In this document: one piece after another, positions 6,235-19,284 of the stretch
Position numbering within the stretch: position 1 is the stretch's first letter
How the letters are laid out: each line of letters opens with the position of its first letter
From: Nitrospinota bacterium
GTDB lineage: Bacteria; Nitrospinota; Nitrospinia; JACRGO01
Direction of reading: 5' to 3'
Length of the DNA stretch: 24,561 bases
NCBI GenBank assembly: GCA_016212295.1
Contig: JACRGO010000178.1
Coordinates: forward strand, 1-24,561
The notes under the pieces: model-generated
Databases searched by the model: none
The model's input: only the letters and a program-made list of their open reading frames with translations
Told to the model about the DNA's origin: nothing
Made by a program: the position numbers and the translations under genes

Positions 6235-6445
6235 CATAGCGCGACGTGGCCGCAACCAAAATAAATTTCGATGTATTCAAACGTTTGATGATATTATTGC
6301 GTTCAGAAATTTACTTTTTACGCTTGAAATAAAACCGGCGTTGAATGCTTCAAGAGGAATTTATTTTGGTTGCGGCCATGCCGCGCTCCAAGAAACGGTT
6401 GAAAAATTTGCGCGGAAAACGAAAATTTCTGAACGTAATAATATA
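6235..6445. repeat. Interleaved inverted-repeat (MITE/REP-like) element
   Basis: Two pairs of inverted arms alternate. Arm A is at 6247-6267 and its exact 21-base complement A' at 6358-6378; the pairing extends to AGCGCG at 6238-6243 and CGCGCT at 6382-6387. Arm B is at about 6291-6322 and its near-complement B' at about 6411-6444. The order A, B, A', B' is not a simple hairpin; folding both would make a pseudoknot-like structure, or it reflects two element copies in opposite orientation. It fills most of the gap between the convergent trpS and GNAT genes and may terminate both. No coding capacity is apparent. Confidence 0.8.
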
Positions 6446-6492
6446 TACCATGTAATTCGTGGTGGGAAAAAGTCCGCGCGAAGGGCGCTAAT

Positions 6493-6996
6493 TTAATTAA
6501 GCCTTTTCCTCAGCACAACCTTGTTATCGTTGTCCGCGTAGTAGTCCGGTATATTGGCCACTTCCTGGTAAGCCTGTTTGATGTAAAAATTTCTCGTGGG
6601 CTTGTATATCTCCTTGGAGGAGGTCTCCACGAAGATATAACGTCCCCCGGCCTCCAGGATGCTTTTTTCCGTTTCCATGATCAGGAAGGCGCCGATCCCC
6701 TCGCGCTGTATTTCCTCGTGGACGGCTATCCAATAAATGTCGAACCTTTCTTCCGCCATGGTTATTGGACCGTAACAGACATAGCCTATAACCTTGCCTT
6801 CCCGCTCCGCGAAGATAAAAAAGTATTCGCTCTTCGCGCCCTTGTCCAGCCTGTCCTGGACCAATTCAAGGGCCACGTCTATTTCATGGGAATGAAATTT
6901 TCCGGTGGAGAGGAGTATGTCCCGCACCCTTTCCAGGTCGCCTTTTTCAGGTTCCCTTCGCAATGTGAGTTTTTTAAAATCCATACGATAAACCAT
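6493..6996 (-). CDS. GNAT-family N-acetyltransferase
   Basis: This 167-aa protein fits the Gcn5-related acetyltransferase fold, which transfers acetyl groups from acetyl-CoA to amines. The acetyl-CoA pyrophosphate-binding motif A is seen as AVHEEIQREGIGAFLI (R-E-G-I-G-A, about residues 91-106), preceded by the beta4 strand FDIYWIAV. A C-terminal beta5 to alpha4 region (YIFVETSS, then PTRNFYIKQAYQEV) carries the usual late Tyr/Phe. It is the last gene of the kamA cluster, 15 bp downstream of an ATP-grasp ligase, so the likely substrate is the cluster's amino-acid product; this is inference. It is much shorter than the beta-lysine acetyltransferase AblB as I recall that family. The true start may be the internal ATG at 6984; neither start has a clear ribosome-binding site. 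Confidence 0.85.
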   Translation of the reverse strand: MVYRMDFKKLTLRREPEKGDLERVRDILLSTGKFHSHEIDVALELVQDRLDKGAKSEYFFIFAEREGKVIGYVCYGPITMAEERFDIYWIAVHEEIQREGIGAFLIMETEKSILEAGGRYIFVETSSKEIYKPTRNFYIKQAYQEVANIPDYYADNDNKVVLRKRLN

Positions 6997-7011
6997 TAAA
7001 TAAAAATGATT

Positions 7012-8046
7012 TCAGCACAAGGCCGCCTCCATTATTTTTTTCACGATGTCCCTTGGTTCATAACCCGCTTCCTTCGCGGCGGCGACAAACCCGGAGTCGG
7101 CGGAGATGCAAGGGTTGGCGTTGATCTCGATTACATACACCCTTCCCTTGGCGTCCACCCGCATGTCCACCCTGGCATAGCCCTTTAAGTGAAAGGCGTT
7201 CCAGCATCGAAGCGCAGTGCCACGGATGGGGTCCAGGGGGGCGTCTCCAGGGTTGAATATTCTTATGGTGTTTTGATACTCAAAGGAGTCCTTGTCCCAT
7301 TTAGCGCTGTAGTTGATGATCCTCGGTTTTCCCTCAGGCCAGCCGCGAAAGACCTGTTCCGCCGCCGGCAGCGTTTCCACCACGCCATCCTGGCCTTCCA
7401 AAAGGGAGATATTGAATTCCCGGCCTTCTATATATTCCTCAACCACCAAGGGTTGGGAACAGAATTTTTTAAAGATCAGCGGGAGGTCTTTCATGAGGAG
7501 GTCAGCGTCGTGGTAAATCGAGCCGTCCTCAATTCCCACCGAGGCGTCTTCCCATGCGGGTTTCACGATCCAGGGCGGGTTAGTTGCGGCAAGAGAAAAA
7601 TCCTGGACCTTGCCTCGGAATTCATTTCCGCCGGGAACAGGGATGCCGTTGGCCCTGAGCACGGCCCTGGAGAGCGTCTTGTCCGTGCAGAGAAGGATTG
7701 AACTGAAGGGGGAGCCGGTGAATGGATAGCCGGAATATTCGAAGACTGCCGGCGGCAGGGAATGAAGCCGAGCGTCTTCCTCCCATTCTTCGAAAAGATT
7801 AAAGATTATGTCAGGCGAATATTGATTCAGGGCCTTTAAAAAATTCAGCCCCCGGTCCTTGCCGTGCAACTGATAAACCCCTGCGCCTTCTTGTTGAGAA
7901 AAGGATTTGCCGGTTGAGAGAGCGAAGGTTTGGAAATCATGGCCAAGGGCGCTCAAGCCCGCGCTGACGAAGCCAACCTGCTCCAGGACGTCCTCGGAGT
8001 CCGTCTTGCCTGGAGCCGGCTGGTTGTATGTTATGGCTACTTTCAT
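7012..8046 (-). CDS. ATP-grasp ligase, D-Ala-D-Ala ligase-like (copy 2)
   Basis: This 344-aa ATP-grasp protein is predicted to activate a carboxylate as an acylphosphate and join it to an amine. An N-terminal Rossmann-like domain is followed by a CTDKTLSRAVLRANGIPVP segment. The ATP-binding stretch WIVKPAWEDASVGIE and the grasp strand VVEEYIEGREFNISLL come next. The Mg/ATP site lies in ARVDMRVDAKGRVYVIEINA followed by NPCIS. It differs from canonical Ddl by lacking the N-terminal HGxxGEDG signature (here IFNLFEEWEEDARLHSLPPA), so the donor substrate is probably not D-alanine. It follows another 344-aa ATP-grasp gene after a 245-bp repeat-bearing gap and precedes a GNAT gene. A minus-strand TATAAT (8055-8060) lies just before the ATG. 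Confidence 0.9.
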   Translation of the reverse strand: MKVAITYNQPAPGKTDSEDVLEQVGFVSAGLSALGHDFQTFALSTGKSFSQQEGAGVYQLHGKDRGLNFLKALNQYSPDIIFNLFEEWEEDARLHSLPPAVFEYSGYPFTGSPFSSILLCTDKTLSRAVLRANGIPVPGGNEFRGKVQDFSLAATNPPWIVKPAWEDASVGIEDGSIYHDADLLMKDLPLIFKKFCSQPLVVEEYIEGREFNISLLEGQDGVVETLPAAEQVFRGWPEGKPRIINYSAKWDKDSFEYQNTIRIFNPGDAPLDPIRGTALRCWNAFHLKGYARVDMRVDAKGRVYVIEINANPCISADSGFVAAAKEAGYEPRDIVKKIMEAALC

Positions 8047-8291
8047 GAATCAAAATTATATTTTAAGCCGCCAAGAACGCGAAGGAACGCGAAATTTTTT
8101 AACATTTTAGCTCTTTGAAAAATATTCGCCTTATCGATTTGAAAGAATGTCTCACACAAAGCCACGAAGGCACTAAGATTTTTTCTTTGTGATCTTTGTG
8201 CCTTTGTGTGAGGCATCTCTTAATTTTTATTTCTTTTAACGTTTTTAGTGGCCTTCGCGGCTGATTTCTTTTTGGCTGCGGCGAAGCAGCG
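8047..8291. repeat. Inverted repeat in the gap between the two ATP-grasp genes
   Basis: Bases 8147-8178 carry ATGTCTCACACAAAGCCACG and continuing sequence. They are complemented imperfectly by CTTTGTGCCTTTGTGTGAGG at 8194-8218, giving a hairpin separated by a T-rich loop. This is the same word family found at the 3' ends of lpd (141-168) and recX (2792-2820). It lies about 73 bases 3' of the upstream ATP-grasp stop and may separate two transcripts. I do not consider the open frame at 8099-8365 a gene; it is built mostly of this repeat. Confidence 0.7.
8055..8060 (-). promoter_or_regulatory. Candidate -10 box for ATP-grasp copy 2 and GNAT
   Basis: The minus strand reads TATAAT here, 8 bases before the ATG at 8044-8046. 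No good -35 is present. If used, it would give a leaderless mRNA and allow the last two genes of the cluster to be expressed apart from kamA. Confidence 0.3.
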
Positions 8292-9326
8292 CTATGAAAC
8301 AAAGGCAGGTAACTCGTTGAAACGGAAGGCCGCTGTTTTGCCTTGCCGCTTGAAGGCGGAATCAAGGATCTTCGATAAAAGGTCCCTGTAGGAAATTCCC
8401 ACCTTGGAGCAGAGTATGGGAAGGTCGGAATGGACAGGATTAATGCCGGCCAGGGGATTCAGTTCAAGGAAATGAATCCTTCCGTTCTGGTCAGTACGGA
8501 GGTCGACCCTTCCCGCATCACGGCAGCCAAGGGCCAGGTAGGCCCTCAAGGCCGTTTCCATTGCCTCTTCCGCTATATCATCTTCCTCCACCAGGTCGTA
8601 AACGATCCTTTCCTCGCATTCCTCCTTGTTTATATAGGAGTAAACGCCTGGCTCGGCCTTATCGGATAACTTTACCTCCAGGGCGCCTATGGCGCGGGCG
8701 CTTTCACCTGTCCCTAGGACGCCCACGGTGAATTCCCGTCCAGGCAAGTACGTTTCAACCAGGACCGGTTGGCGGAATTTCCGGAGGAGGGCCTCGCATT
8801 GGATTTCCAGTTCCCCGCGGTTACGCACAATTGACAGCGGCGTGATACCCTTGCCTGTCCCTTCGGATATAGGTTTTGCGAAAAGGGGAAAAGCAATTTC
8901 CTGGAGCGTCCGCCAATTTTCCAGGTCTTCCAGGCTGGAGACTTCCATGAACTCCGGCGTTGGGATATCCGCCGCGCTGACTATCCTCTTGGCCAATGCC
9001 TTGTCATGGCAAAGGCACAGGGTGACCGGGTCGCTGAAGGTGTATGGAACTGAAAAGGCTTCAAGCAGGGCAGGGACCTGCGCCTCGCGGCTTCTTCCGT
9101 GAAGTCCCTCGCAGATATTGAACACCATGTCCCACCGTTCGCCGATGGTGAGCCGCCGCGTCAGCTCGAAAATATTACCTATCCTGGCCACGCCATGGCC
9201 GAGACCGCTGATGGTCTCGTCCAGGGCGTTAATGGTCGCTTCACTGTCAAACTCAGCGGTCTCCTCCTCGGAGTACCCCATCTCCAGATAGTCTTTTCTC
9301 AGATCATAGGCAAGGCCGATCTTCAT
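8292..9326 (-). CDS. ATP-grasp ligase, D-Ala-D-Ala ligase-like (copy 1)
   Basis: This 344-aa ATP-grasp protein is predicted to form an amide bond using ATP. Visible elements are the N-terminal domain ending NICEGLHGRSREAQVPALLE, which partly recalls the HGxxGEDG-to-xxxLLE helix of Ddl. Then follow the switch segment CHDKALAKRIVSAADIPTP, the P-loop-like AKPISEGTGKGI, the grasp strand VLVETYLPGREFTVGVLG, and the metal site GRVDLRTDQNGRIHFLELNP with LAGINPVHSDLP after it. The E-x-N-P and D-L-R pattern is intact, so it should be active. Its ATG abuts the kamA TGA with no spacing, and an AAGGA lies 8 bases upstream inside kamA; this indicates translational coupling. It is only distantly similar to copy 2, so the two probably act on different substrates. 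Confidence 0.9.
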   Translation of the reverse strand: MKIGLAYDLRKDYLEMGYSEEETAEFDSEATINALDETISGLGHGVARIGNIFELTRRLTIGERWDMVFNICEGLHGRSREAQVPALLEAFSVPYTFSDPVTLCLCHDKALAKRIVSAADIPTPEFMEVSSLEDLENWRTLQEIAFPLFAKPISEGTGKGITPLSIVRNRGELEIQCEALLRKFRQPVLVETYLPGREFTVGVLGTGESARAIGALEVKLSDKAEPGVYSYINKEECEERIVYDLVEEDDIAEEAMETALRAYLALGCRDAGRVDLRTDQNGRIHFLELNPLAGINPVHSDLPILCSKVGISYRDLLSKILDSAFKRQGKTAAFRFNELPAFVS

Positions 9327-10724
9327 TCAGTTGTCCTTCCAGAAGGGAAACGCCTGCTGGTTATGAGTATCGAGGCAGCGTTGGAGATTTTTCTTCCGCC
9401 TCCTGGCGAACCTCGGAGTGTTTTGAGGGATGACGATCTTCGCGTTCTCCTTGAATAGCGCCGCCTTGCCTCCGCTCTTGCCGTTGCCGTTAGTCTTTTT
9501 GGGTTTCGAGGCCCCGTTTTCCTGGGGATTATAGTACTTGACGATCATCCCCTCGTAGTTTCTCAGGAGCACTTCCTTGTCGGTGGCTGACAGGAGATAA
9601 AAGGGCTGGAGAGGGATCTTGCCTCCGCCGCCGGGGGCGTCCACCACGAAGGTCGGGATGGATAGTCCACCCGTGTAGCCCCGGAACATCTCTATTATCT
9701 CGATCCCCTTCCAGATGCTTGTCCTGAAATGCTCAACGCCCCTGACCGGATCGCATTGGAACAGGTAGTAGGGCCTTACCATTATTTTTTGCAGGGAGTG
9801 GTTCAACTCCTTCATGATTTCAACTGAGTCGTTTATACCCTTGAGAAGAACGGATTGGTTGGACACCGGTATGCCGGCCCTGATGATTTTGTCGCATGCC
9901 TCTTGCGCCTCCGGGGTGATTTCCCTCGGATGGTTGAACTGTGTGTTTAGCCAGAGGGGCCGGTGGGAGGCGAGCATTTTGGTAAGGTCATCGGTTATCC
10001 TCATTGGAAGCACCACCGGGACACGGGTGCCTATCCTCAACACGTCCACGTGGGAAATTTTTCCAAGCTCACCAAGGAACCAATCGAGATTATCCATGTT
10101 GGAGGTGAGCGGGTCGCCGCCTGAGATAACCACTTCCCTTACCTTTGGGGTTGACCTCACGTACGCCACCATGGCCTCAAGGTCTTTTCTTGATGACGCG
10201 GACTCTCCCTCGTGCCATATCCTCTTCCTGGTGCAGTGGCGGCAATACATGGCGCAGGTATTGGTGACGATGGCCAGCACCCTGTTCGGATAGCGGTGCA
10301 CGAGATTAGGGACCGGCATGTCCTCCTCTTCTTCCAATGGGTCGATATCGCCCACTACCTCGAAGCTGGCCTCCTGAAGGTCAGGAATGGCCTGTTTTCT
10401 TATGGGGTCTTCCGGGTCGGACCAATCAATGAGTGAAAGATAATAAGGGGTCGCCGAGTAGTGAAAAACTTCGAGGAGTTTCTTAAAGGCCGAAACCTGG
10501 TAGGGTTTCAGATTTAGAAGGGAGGAAAGCGCCTGGAGGGACCGAAGCCGGTTCGCCATTTGCCACCGCCAGTCGTTCCATTGCTTGGAGGTGGCGTCAG
10601 GCCAAAATCTGTTGAAAATCGTTTCTTTTTTCAGGGTAACTACGCCATTGTCACTGCACGACCATTCGAGCAACTGGCTTGGGGGTTCTTCGTCCCCCTC
10701 TTTTAAAATTTGTGACGTCTCCAT
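9327..10724 (-). CDS. kamA: KamA-family radical SAM lysine 2,3-aminomutase-like protein
   Basis: This family uses S-adenosylmethionine, a 4Fe-4S cluster and pyridoxal phosphate to move the alpha-amino group of lysine to the beta carbon. The 465-aa protein has a KamA N-terminus (WNDWRWQMANR), the radical-SAM motif CAMYCRHC (C157, C161, C164), and the PLP lysine in PGGGGK (K369). Both carboxylates that bind the lysine side-chain amine in the clostridial enzyme are conserved: D325 in QCDPVRGVEHFRT and D362 in FVVDAPGGGGK, at the same 37-residue spacing. It lacks the C-terminal Cys-x-Cys-x2-Cys zinc cluster I recall from the clostridial enzyme. In its place is a Lys/Gly/Asn-rich linker and a basic tail. 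First gene of the cluster, with a strong GGAGG ribosome-binding site. Glutamate aminomutase or the EF-P enzyme EpmB are alternatives; no efp or epmA is nearby. Confidence 0.92.
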   Translation of the reverse strand: METSQILKEGDEEPPSQLLEWSCSDNGVVTLKKETIFNRFWPDATSKQWNDWRWQMANRLRSLQALSSLLNLKPYQVSAFKKLLEVFHYSATPYYLSLIDWSDPEDPIRKQAIPDLQEASFEVVGDIDPLEEEEDMPVPNLVHRYPNRVLAIVTNTCAMYCRHCTRKRIWHEGESASSRKDLEAMVAYVRSTPKVREVVISGGDPLTSNMDNLDWFLGELGKISHVDVLRIGTRVPVVLPMRITDDLTKMLASHRPLWLNTQFNHPREITPEAQEACDKIIRAGIPVSNQSVLLKGINDSVEIMKELNHSLQKIMVRPYYLFQCDPVRGVEHFRTSIWKGIEIIEMFRGYTGGLSIPTFVVDAPGGGGKIPLQPFYLLSATDKEVLLRNYEGMIVKYYNPQENGASKPKKTNGNGKSGGKAALFKENAKIVIPQNTPRFARRRKKNLQRCLDTHNQQAFPFWKDN

Positions 10725-17559: not shown

Positions 17560-18692
17560 TCAAAGCCCCTTATAAACCTGGATGTACCGCTCTATGATAG
17601 AGTCCCAGTTGTAATTTTTTTCCACCAGGCCGCGGATTTTATTGCCGAAGCCCTCGCGTATTCCGGATGGCCGAAGGTTTTCGACGCACTCCGATATCTC
17701 CTTGGGATCAAGCCCGGTGAGAAAGCCGGTTTCACCGGGAATTACTATGTCCCTGGCTATTCCCACCGGAGTGGATATGACCGGCAGGCCGGCGGTGGCC
17801 GCTTCAAGTACAGGCTGACCTAAATTTTCATAACTGGAGGGGTAGATAAAAACATCGGACTCCAGATAAAAACGTTGAAGCTCCGCGCCGTACTTGGGTC
17901 CAATGAAAAACACCTTGCCTTGAGCGCCCAGTTCGCGAACCAGGGCCTCCAGTTCCGCGACATAGCCTTTTTTGGATGTGCTGCTCGTCCTTTCCTCGCT
18001 CCCTACAATATGCAAGACGGCGTCTTCCATCAGGGAGACCGCCTTGATCGCTGCTTCAACGTTCCTGTTCCTGGCAAGCCTTCCCACAAAGAGCAGTTTC
18101 AACGGACCGGACTCATTATACGCCCGTTTTTGCTGGAGAGTTGAGGCGTTGGCCCCAGCGGGAATTATTTCCAGTTTTTTGCAGTCTATTCCAAATTCAA
18201 CGGCGTCTTCGTGTTCCAGCTTAGTGGAGACGATGACCTTGGTTGCCCGTTTTGCCGTTGTCTTGAAAGAGAGGGAGTCGTAGAGCGCATAAGGGAGTTT
18301 TGATTTCCAGCCGTGGAGGTATTTCTTGAAGCCGAGAAGGGAGCCGTGTGTGCTGAGGACAAAGGGTTTCTTGTGGAGACGGGAAAAAAAAAAGCCAGAT
18401 CGGATTGAAAATTCCTGTAGTTGTGGGCGTGAAGGATATCATAGTCCCTGAATGACATGGCCATGCCAAGGCTCAGGCAGTATCTCATTATCCTGGCCTG
18501 GTTTTTATGCCTGTATACCTCAACGCCATTGATCGTTTCCTTGGCGGGAAGGGTCGGGTCCACGTCGCAATAAGTGGTGAGCACCGGGGAAGCAATGCCG
18601 CGTTCCTCCAAACCCCTTGAAATTTGAAACGCCTGGTTAGCCGGACCGCACACGTAAGGGTAGAAGGTTTCAATTGTCCTCAGGATTTTCAT
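17560..18692 (-). CDS. Family 4 glycosyltransferase, interrupted by a frameshift at a 10-base homopolymer
   Basis: A GT-B retaining glycosyltransferase (GT4) for surface polysaccharide. The frame starting at 18692 (MKILRTIETFYPYVCGPANQ) encodes the acceptor domain through HAHNYRNFQSDLAFFF. It then meets ten T on the coding strand (18384-18393) and goes out of frame. One extra T restores a continuous frame reading SRLHKKPFVLSTHGSLLGFK, on into AKRATKVIVSTKLEHEDAVE, and then the donor domain LLFVGRLARNRNVEAAI with the EX7E motif ENLGQPVLE. The repaired protein would be 377 aa, normal for GT4. As written, the gene appears as two pieces, 18186-18713 and 17560-18102. The cause could be a sequencing or assembly error, transcriptional slippage, phase variation or a real mutation. 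HTH gene upstream, GT2 downstream. Confidence 0.85.
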
Positions 18693-18705
18693 GGCGCGAT
18701 ATGTT

Positions 18706-19284
18706 TTAAACAAAAACTATCTTTTCCCTGGAAATGTTCATTTCCGTTATTTGCTTGTGGATGATCTCTCTCGATGAGAAAGCGGTGATGATTACCCTGT
18801 CGAATTCGTCCTGGAGGAGTTTTTCCTTTGGGTAAATATTCTTGTCGAAGAATTTGGCCCCATGTTTGTGATCGTCCACCAAATACAACAGTCCTAAATT
18901 ACTGCCGTTAAGGGAAATATAAGCGATCTCCGCCACTTCTCCAGCGCCGTAGAATACCACGTTGCGCAGCCTTTTTTCCTCGATTTCCTGAAATGCCTCC
19001 TTGAATTTCAGCCTGATGTTTTTATAGTATTCAAAGGAAAATTTCATGTACTCGTATGTCAGGCTGGCTTTTTCCGATATGCCTTTGGGCGTGAGATTGT
19101 AAATGATTCTGTTTCCCGGCATTGCCCTGACCATGATGTGGCCTTTTCGAACAAGCCTTTTCAGGTAGGTGTTGGCCAGCCCCAGGGCGATTCCCAGATT
19201 TTTCGCCATTTCCCTTTGGGTAAGCGGTTGTTCCTTGGAGACCTCGGTTAAAATTTGAAGATTTCGTAAAAGGACTTTATCCAT
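18706..19284 (-). CDS. Winged-helix regulator fused to a Rossmann-like nucleotide-binding domain
   Basis: A 192-aa protein. Residues 1-75 form a MarR-type winged helix (LTQREMAKNLGIALGLANTY as the helix-turn-helix and IIYNLTPKGISEK as the wing). This resembles regulators annotated as EPS-associated. Residues 108-192 look like a Rossmann half-domain starting NVVFYGAGEVAEIAYISL, with a GxGxxA nucleotide loop, then LVDDHKHGAKFFDK and VIITAFSSREII, resembling the CoA/NAD-binding module found in PglD-like sugar enzymes. The combination suggests a regulator that senses a nucleotide or nucleotide sugar; this is inference. Its ATG overlaps the stop of the DUF2304 gene (TAATG), and the GT4 follows after 13 bp, so it sits inside the glycan operon and may autoregulate it. 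Confidence 0.82.
   Translation of the reverse strand: MDKVLLRNLQILTEVSKEQPLTQREMAKNLGIALGLANTYLKRLVRKGHIMVRAMPGNRIIYNLTPKGISEKASLTYEYMKFSFEYYKNIRLKFKEAFQEIEEKRLRNVVFYGAGEVAEIAYISLNGSNLGLLYLVDDHKHGAKFFDKNIYPKEKLLQDEFDRVIITAFSSREIIHKQITEMNISREKIVFV

Follow-up and report, generated by a model that had tools for sequence, protein, structure and literature searches.

The AblA/AblB osmolyte pathway, in which a KamA-type lysine 2,3-aminomutase acts together with a GNAT acetyltransferase, is known from methanogens and has been proposed for Pelobacter (PMC3543383), and in Dehalobacter ablA is under the control of a Na+ riboswitch (PMC9337991). The locus described here, which lies in a window of 24,561 nucleotides (the whole stretch of DNA that was analysed), likewise brings a KamA-type enzyme and a GNAT together in one cluster, but it adds two conserved ATP-grasp ligases, its GNAT is not clearly an AblB and its KamA scores below the AblA cut-off. 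The neutral solute N-acetylglutaminylglutamine amide (NAGGN) is also made by an amide ligase, which forms the peptide bond, and a GNAT, which carries out the N-acetylation. The cassette would share both of these steps with the NAGGN pathway, but it is devoid of an asparagine synthetase-like gene, in place of which it has two ligases of the Ddl type and an enzyme for a beta-amino acid. With the Ddl/Van ligases the two cassette ligases (LigA and LigB) have in common the fold, the ATP, Mg and oxyanion residues and the logic of a dipeptide ligase, whereas they fall in separate clades, far below the Ddl cut-offs, and their donor-pocket residues have been replaced. The cassette seems to combine the chemistry of AblA/AblB with that of stand-alone peptide ligases; on the tests run, it does not belong to the AblA/AblB pathway and its ligases are not Ddl enzymes. 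We found no description of this gene set in the open-access literature and prior notice is possible; Iyer et al. are said to have surveyed amidoligase gene neighbourhoods in Mol Biosyst in 2009. The features of the locus are the following:

9327..10724, minus strand: KamA, radical SAM/PLP lysine 2,3-aminomutase-like protein, 465 aa (ORF call, Pfam/NCBIfam, alignment to 2a5h)
8292..9326, minus strand: LigA, Ddl-fold ATP-grasp ligase of the first conserved family, 344 aa (Pfam, NCBIfam, tree, residues, model)
8047..8291, no strand: gap between LigA and LigB with a dispersed palindromic repeat (8147-8169/8194-8216), outside the conserved cassette (sequence, genome search)
7012..8046, minus strand: LigB, Ddl-fold ATP-grasp ligase of the second conserved family, 344 aa (Pfam, NCBIfam, tree, residues, model)
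6493..6996, minus strand: GNAT N-acetyltransferase of 167 aa; some relatives have it as a fusion with LigB (Pfam, NCBIfam, loci of relatives)

The list of minus-strand ORFs bears out the four same-strand genes and the coordinates given by the first-pass annotation, and the sequence agrees with it in that the KamA TGA directly abuts the LigA ATG and that LigB and the GNAT are 15 bp apart. Pfam assigns LAM_C and Radical_SAM domains to KamA, one Dala_Dala_lig_C domain to each ligase and Acetyltransf_1 to the GNAT. The equal length of the ligases, on which the same annotation had remarked, is real and, as judged from the sequences, a coincidence, since they belong to different families and share 29% identity; the 245 bp that separate LigA from LigB had not been mentioned there. 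The palindrome found in this gap occurs also at 136-168 and 2782-2824 and has ~45 partial matches in the same genome, so the wide spacing reflects a local insertion and not a feature of the cassette.

The first-pass annotation, which had called for a synteny search, took a lack of conservation of the four genes in relatives as a refutation of its reading. In fact, the quartet is conserved. A first search, with 148 relatives, already revealed the same gene set in unrelated genomes, and a LigA profile search of named genomes confirmed at least 539 relatives, the best 80 of which by score were taken for inspection of their loci. Among these best 80, KamA lies upstream of LigA in 73 and the order KamA-LigA-LigB-GNAT is complete in 54, the full quartet being present in 42 of the 52 that have enough flanking sequence. 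As the best 80 were selected by score, we additionally drew an even sample of 198 genomes within a single phylum. About a fifth of these genomes (41) have a LigA above 400 bits; in the 40 LigA loci inspected there, KamA was directly upstream in 39, LigB downstream in 38 and the GNAT present in 32, with contig ends cutting off 3 more, and 32 hold the full quartet. According to record titles, quartet loci are distributed over at least nine phyla (Nitrospirota, Thermodesulfobacteriota, Planctomycetota, Pseudomonadota, Acidobacteriota, Bacteroidota, Ignavibacteriota, Krumholzibacteriota and Aminicenantes among them); most of the records are metagenome bins, so that individual assignments may err; the wide range as such is certain. 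The same four families thus recur on the same strand and in the same order in distant genomes, which is more than chance would give. Desulfocarbo indianensis SCBM (L040) is a named carrier. The distribution is patchy, as illustrated by a congener of the window genome (G001) that has KamA without the ligases beside it. Spread by plasmids was considered and rejected, as a plasmid search with LigB returned only matches below 60% identity. Several loci (L045, L049, L071, L073, L075 and L246) have KamA and LigA without LigB or the GNAT nearby, so this pair looks like the core and LigA probably uses the product of KamA, and in four others (L033, L034, L072 and L116) LigB is fused to the GNAT, which ties the GNAT to the pathway.

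KamA aligns to the lysine 2,3-aminomutase of C. subterminale (2a5h) with an E-value of 2.7e-125 and a constant offset of 32. The residues that had been singled out from the window sequence were confirmed by this alignment, in which C157, C161 and C164 (a CxxxCxxC radical SAM motif) correspond to the cluster cysteines and D325, D362 and K369 to D293, D330 and K337, K369 being the PLP lysine and the two aspartates the counterparts of those that hold the epsilon-amino group of lysine in 2a5h. All 73 KamAs that were compared have both aspartates and K369, and the three cysteines are kept wherever readable. These residues point to lysine as the substrate; D325 and D362 are present also in KamAs from outside the cassette, so they are not specific to its use there. 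Among the aminomutase models, the lysine one (TIGR03820, the AblA equivalog of NCBIfam) scores best, with 504.4 bits, 21 under its cut-off of 525.4, followed by the glutamate (471 bits) and arginine (376 bits) models. A role in EF-P beta-lysylation was rejected on score (243.2 bits against the EpmB model TIGR03821, cut-off 369.3). In the KamA tree, the window protein and those of Nitrospirota form a clade outside the main clade of cassette KamAs, and a tree holding all cassette KamAs together was rejected (AU p 0.003 and 0.005). LigA and LigB show no such split, each being one family, and the simplest reading, provisional because of long branches, would be the replacement of one KamA by another that serves the same function. 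Such an exchange would give independent support to the need for an aminomutase step.

A ligase tree with eight Ddl controls, the kind of test that the first-pass annotation had suggested, separated LigA and LigB into two orthologous families that extend across phyla and are distinct from each other and from Ddl. Against the Ddl models PRK01372 and TIGR01205, with cut-offs of 243-246 bits, LigA scores 140 and 128 bits and LigB 110 and 99 bits, respectively. The AlphaFold models (pLDDT 91 for LigA and 90 for LigB) have Ddl structures as best structural matches and the counterparts of DdlB K97, K144, E180, E187, R255, D257, E270 and N272, the roles of which are established for DdlB, are invariant in 25 of 25 LigA and 25 of 25 LigB sequences, two of the Ddl controls (L174 and L180), probably mis-picked ORFs, having been excluded from the comparison. 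Both proteins hence keep the Ddl fold with its ATP, Mg and oxyanion residues and look catalytically competent. The pocket for the first D-Ala (E15, H63, S150 and Y216 in DdlB) is not kept. By sequence alignment to Ddl, in which the N-terminal loop is gapped and includes the E15 position, H63 is replaced by an invariant glutamate (E73 in LigA and E86 in LigB, 25 sequences each), Y216 by E235 in 23 of 25 LigA and by an invariant W250 in LigB, and S150 by T157 and A168, respectively. On the acceptor side, the serine S281 is kept in LigA and is A, S or G in LigB, which has an invariant cysteine at the position of DdlB G276. In our reading, both are competent amide ligases whose donor is no longer D-Ala. 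The extra acids would suit the donor pocket of LigA to a cationic donor, for example beta-lysine. The possibility that they are ordinary Ddl duplicates was rejected by the tree and by the pocket residues; a separate Ddl is encoded on another contig (C219) of the window genome.

With regard to the GNAT, a parallel with AblB had been drawn in the first-pass annotation and this part did not hold up well, as TIGR03827 (AblB) does not match the window protein at E 0.01 and gives weak matches to only 3 of 16 GNATs from cassettes. Furthermore, 19 of the best 80 cassettes and 8 of the 40 from the even draw contain a gene for a protein of ~580 aa whose N-terminus resembles a GNAT and whose Hist_deacetyl domain is intact; it is fused to the GNAT in some loci and lies between KamA and LigA in others. 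Its best PDB matches are acetylpolyamine amidohydrolases, with which it shares the Hist_deacetyl domain and the conserved HH and DxH motifs, but from which it differs in the extra N-terminal domain and in its place within the cassette. A deacetylase of this type makes it likely that a terminal amine is acetylated, possibly in a reversible manner. It is absent from the window cassette and from most others, and the single Hist_deacetyl protein of the window genome (319 aa) is encoded on a different contig. Thirteen loci carry a small CxxCxxCC protein between KamA and LigA, and in one family of the window's class (L112, L162, L165, L166 and L168) a pyruvoyl-dependent arginine decarboxylase adjoins a LigB variant and the GNAT, with KamA and a LigA variant nearby or elsewhere. 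In the neighbourhoods of relatives, neither osmolyte genes nor genes for exporters, carrier proteins, resistance or regulation recur with the cassette, and a search for Rfam riboswitches at the cassette returned nothing in the window and seven related loci.

All these data are consistent with a cassette for the biosynthesis of a small peptide-like molecule that is N-acetylated and contains beta-lysine, a reading to which we give about an even chance and for which we infer every substrate, the order of the steps and the product. KamA would convert L-lysine to beta-lysine, and LigA would activate its carboxylate with ATP and couple it to a second amino acid, as suggested by an acceptor-side carboxylate site like that of Ddl and a donor pocket with extra conserved acids. 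LigB, with its different acceptor site, would form a second amide bond, and the GNAT would acetylate a free amine, most likely the terminal one; in many lineages the fused GNAT/acetylpolyamine-amidohydrolase-type enzyme could take the acetyl group off again. The product would most likely stay inside the cell as a neutral or zwitterionic solute, a proposed role to which neither the riboswitch search nor the neighbouring genes lend support and which we hold less firmly than the peptide reading itself. The broader proposal of a pathway to a new compatible solute or core metabolite that crosses phyla, an N-acetylated beta-lysyl di- or tripeptide made by two stand-alone ATP-grasp ligases and subject to reversible acetylation in many lineages, falls somewhat short of an even chance in our estimation. 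If true, a metabolite common among anaerobic and environmental bacteria has been overlooked so far, one with a bearing on beta-amino acid metabolism, on osmoadaptation and on the reversible acetylation of amines. The ligation and acetylation of beta-lysine had been put forward in the first-pass annotation, and this idea comes out strengthened, not proven, by the synteny, the lysine-type KamA residues, the competent-looking ligases and the recurrent deacetylase. Its option of an antibiotic-like product is weakened: an antibiotic is unlikely, because no exporter, regulator, carrier protein or resistance gene recurs and the spread is wide and housekeeping-like.

Other explanations would account for parts of these observations. 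The acetyl group could be a temporary protecting group for regioselective ligation, the deacetylase then freeing the amine to leave a cationic, polyamine-like beta-lysyl peptide. The deacetylase gene inside the cassettes and the arginine decarboxylase, a polyamine enzyme, beside the LigB-GNAT variant agree with this, but most cassettes, including that of the window, do without the deacetylase and the gene would make equal sense in the turnover of an acetylated solute, and we regard this possibility as unlikely. Slightly less probable, in our view, is a modification of the cell envelope in which a wall or lipid precursor would receive beta-lysine from the ligases. The Ddl fold of both ligases would fit, as would the MraY-like ORF, identified by eye, that four loci of Planctomycetota have upstream of the cassette; however, this neighbour is confined to one lineage, genes for membrane proteins, transferases or transport do not recur from one lineage to another and all four proteins belong to families of soluble enzymes.

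It could also be that KamA and the GNAT make N-epsilon-acetyl-beta-lysine, the known osmolyte, while the ligases serve a separate purpose, as the two enzymes follow the AblA/AblB logic of methanogens and Pelobacter and the Dehalobacter ablA responds to a Na+ riboswitch. Against this, the gene most tightly tied to KamA is LigA, the GNATs match the AblB model poorly or not at all and LigB-GNAT fusions exist, which places this explanation lower again in our ranking. Finally, KamA might act on another amino acid, such as arginine or ornithine, and the pathway lead to a different beta-amino acid peptide, and its score just under the lysine equivalog cut-off and the arginine decarboxylase adjoining the variant cluster could be taken in this sense. 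This we consider the least probable of the four, given that the lysine model scores above the glutamate and arginine ones and that D325 and D362 are invariant.

Some further observations concern related genes and the rest of the window. Tandem-fused double ligases of ~700-965 aa related to LigA were found (L120, 6723-9584; G103 and G154), and ligase-like proteins of 650-740 aa occur in many genomes of the window's class. In Syntrophaceae/Smithella loci (L067, L082, L086, L094, L097, L104 and L106), a LysA/ornithine-type PLP decarboxylase follows downstream at a distance of a few kb from the cassette, past phosphate-transport-like genes. Positions 6235-6447 of the window hold a non-coding dispersed repeat of ~210 bp without a match in Rfam, made of two interleaved inverted repeats (a-b-a'-b') with arms at 6238-6267/6358-6387 and 6291-6323/6412-6444. 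About 40 copies in the same genome were scored out of 404 candidates, mostly full length and with 81-94% identity, and in 21 aligned copies both helices covary, with 14 pairs changed on both sides and 93% of cells paired as compared to 36-47% when the helices are slid. This repeat may represent a mobile element or else an RNA with a pseudoknot. Moreover, a group 1 glycosyltransferase at 17560-18713 is apparently split into two ORFs (17560-18102 and 18186-18713), the Pfam domain being in the downstream half only, and looks frameshifted or decayed.
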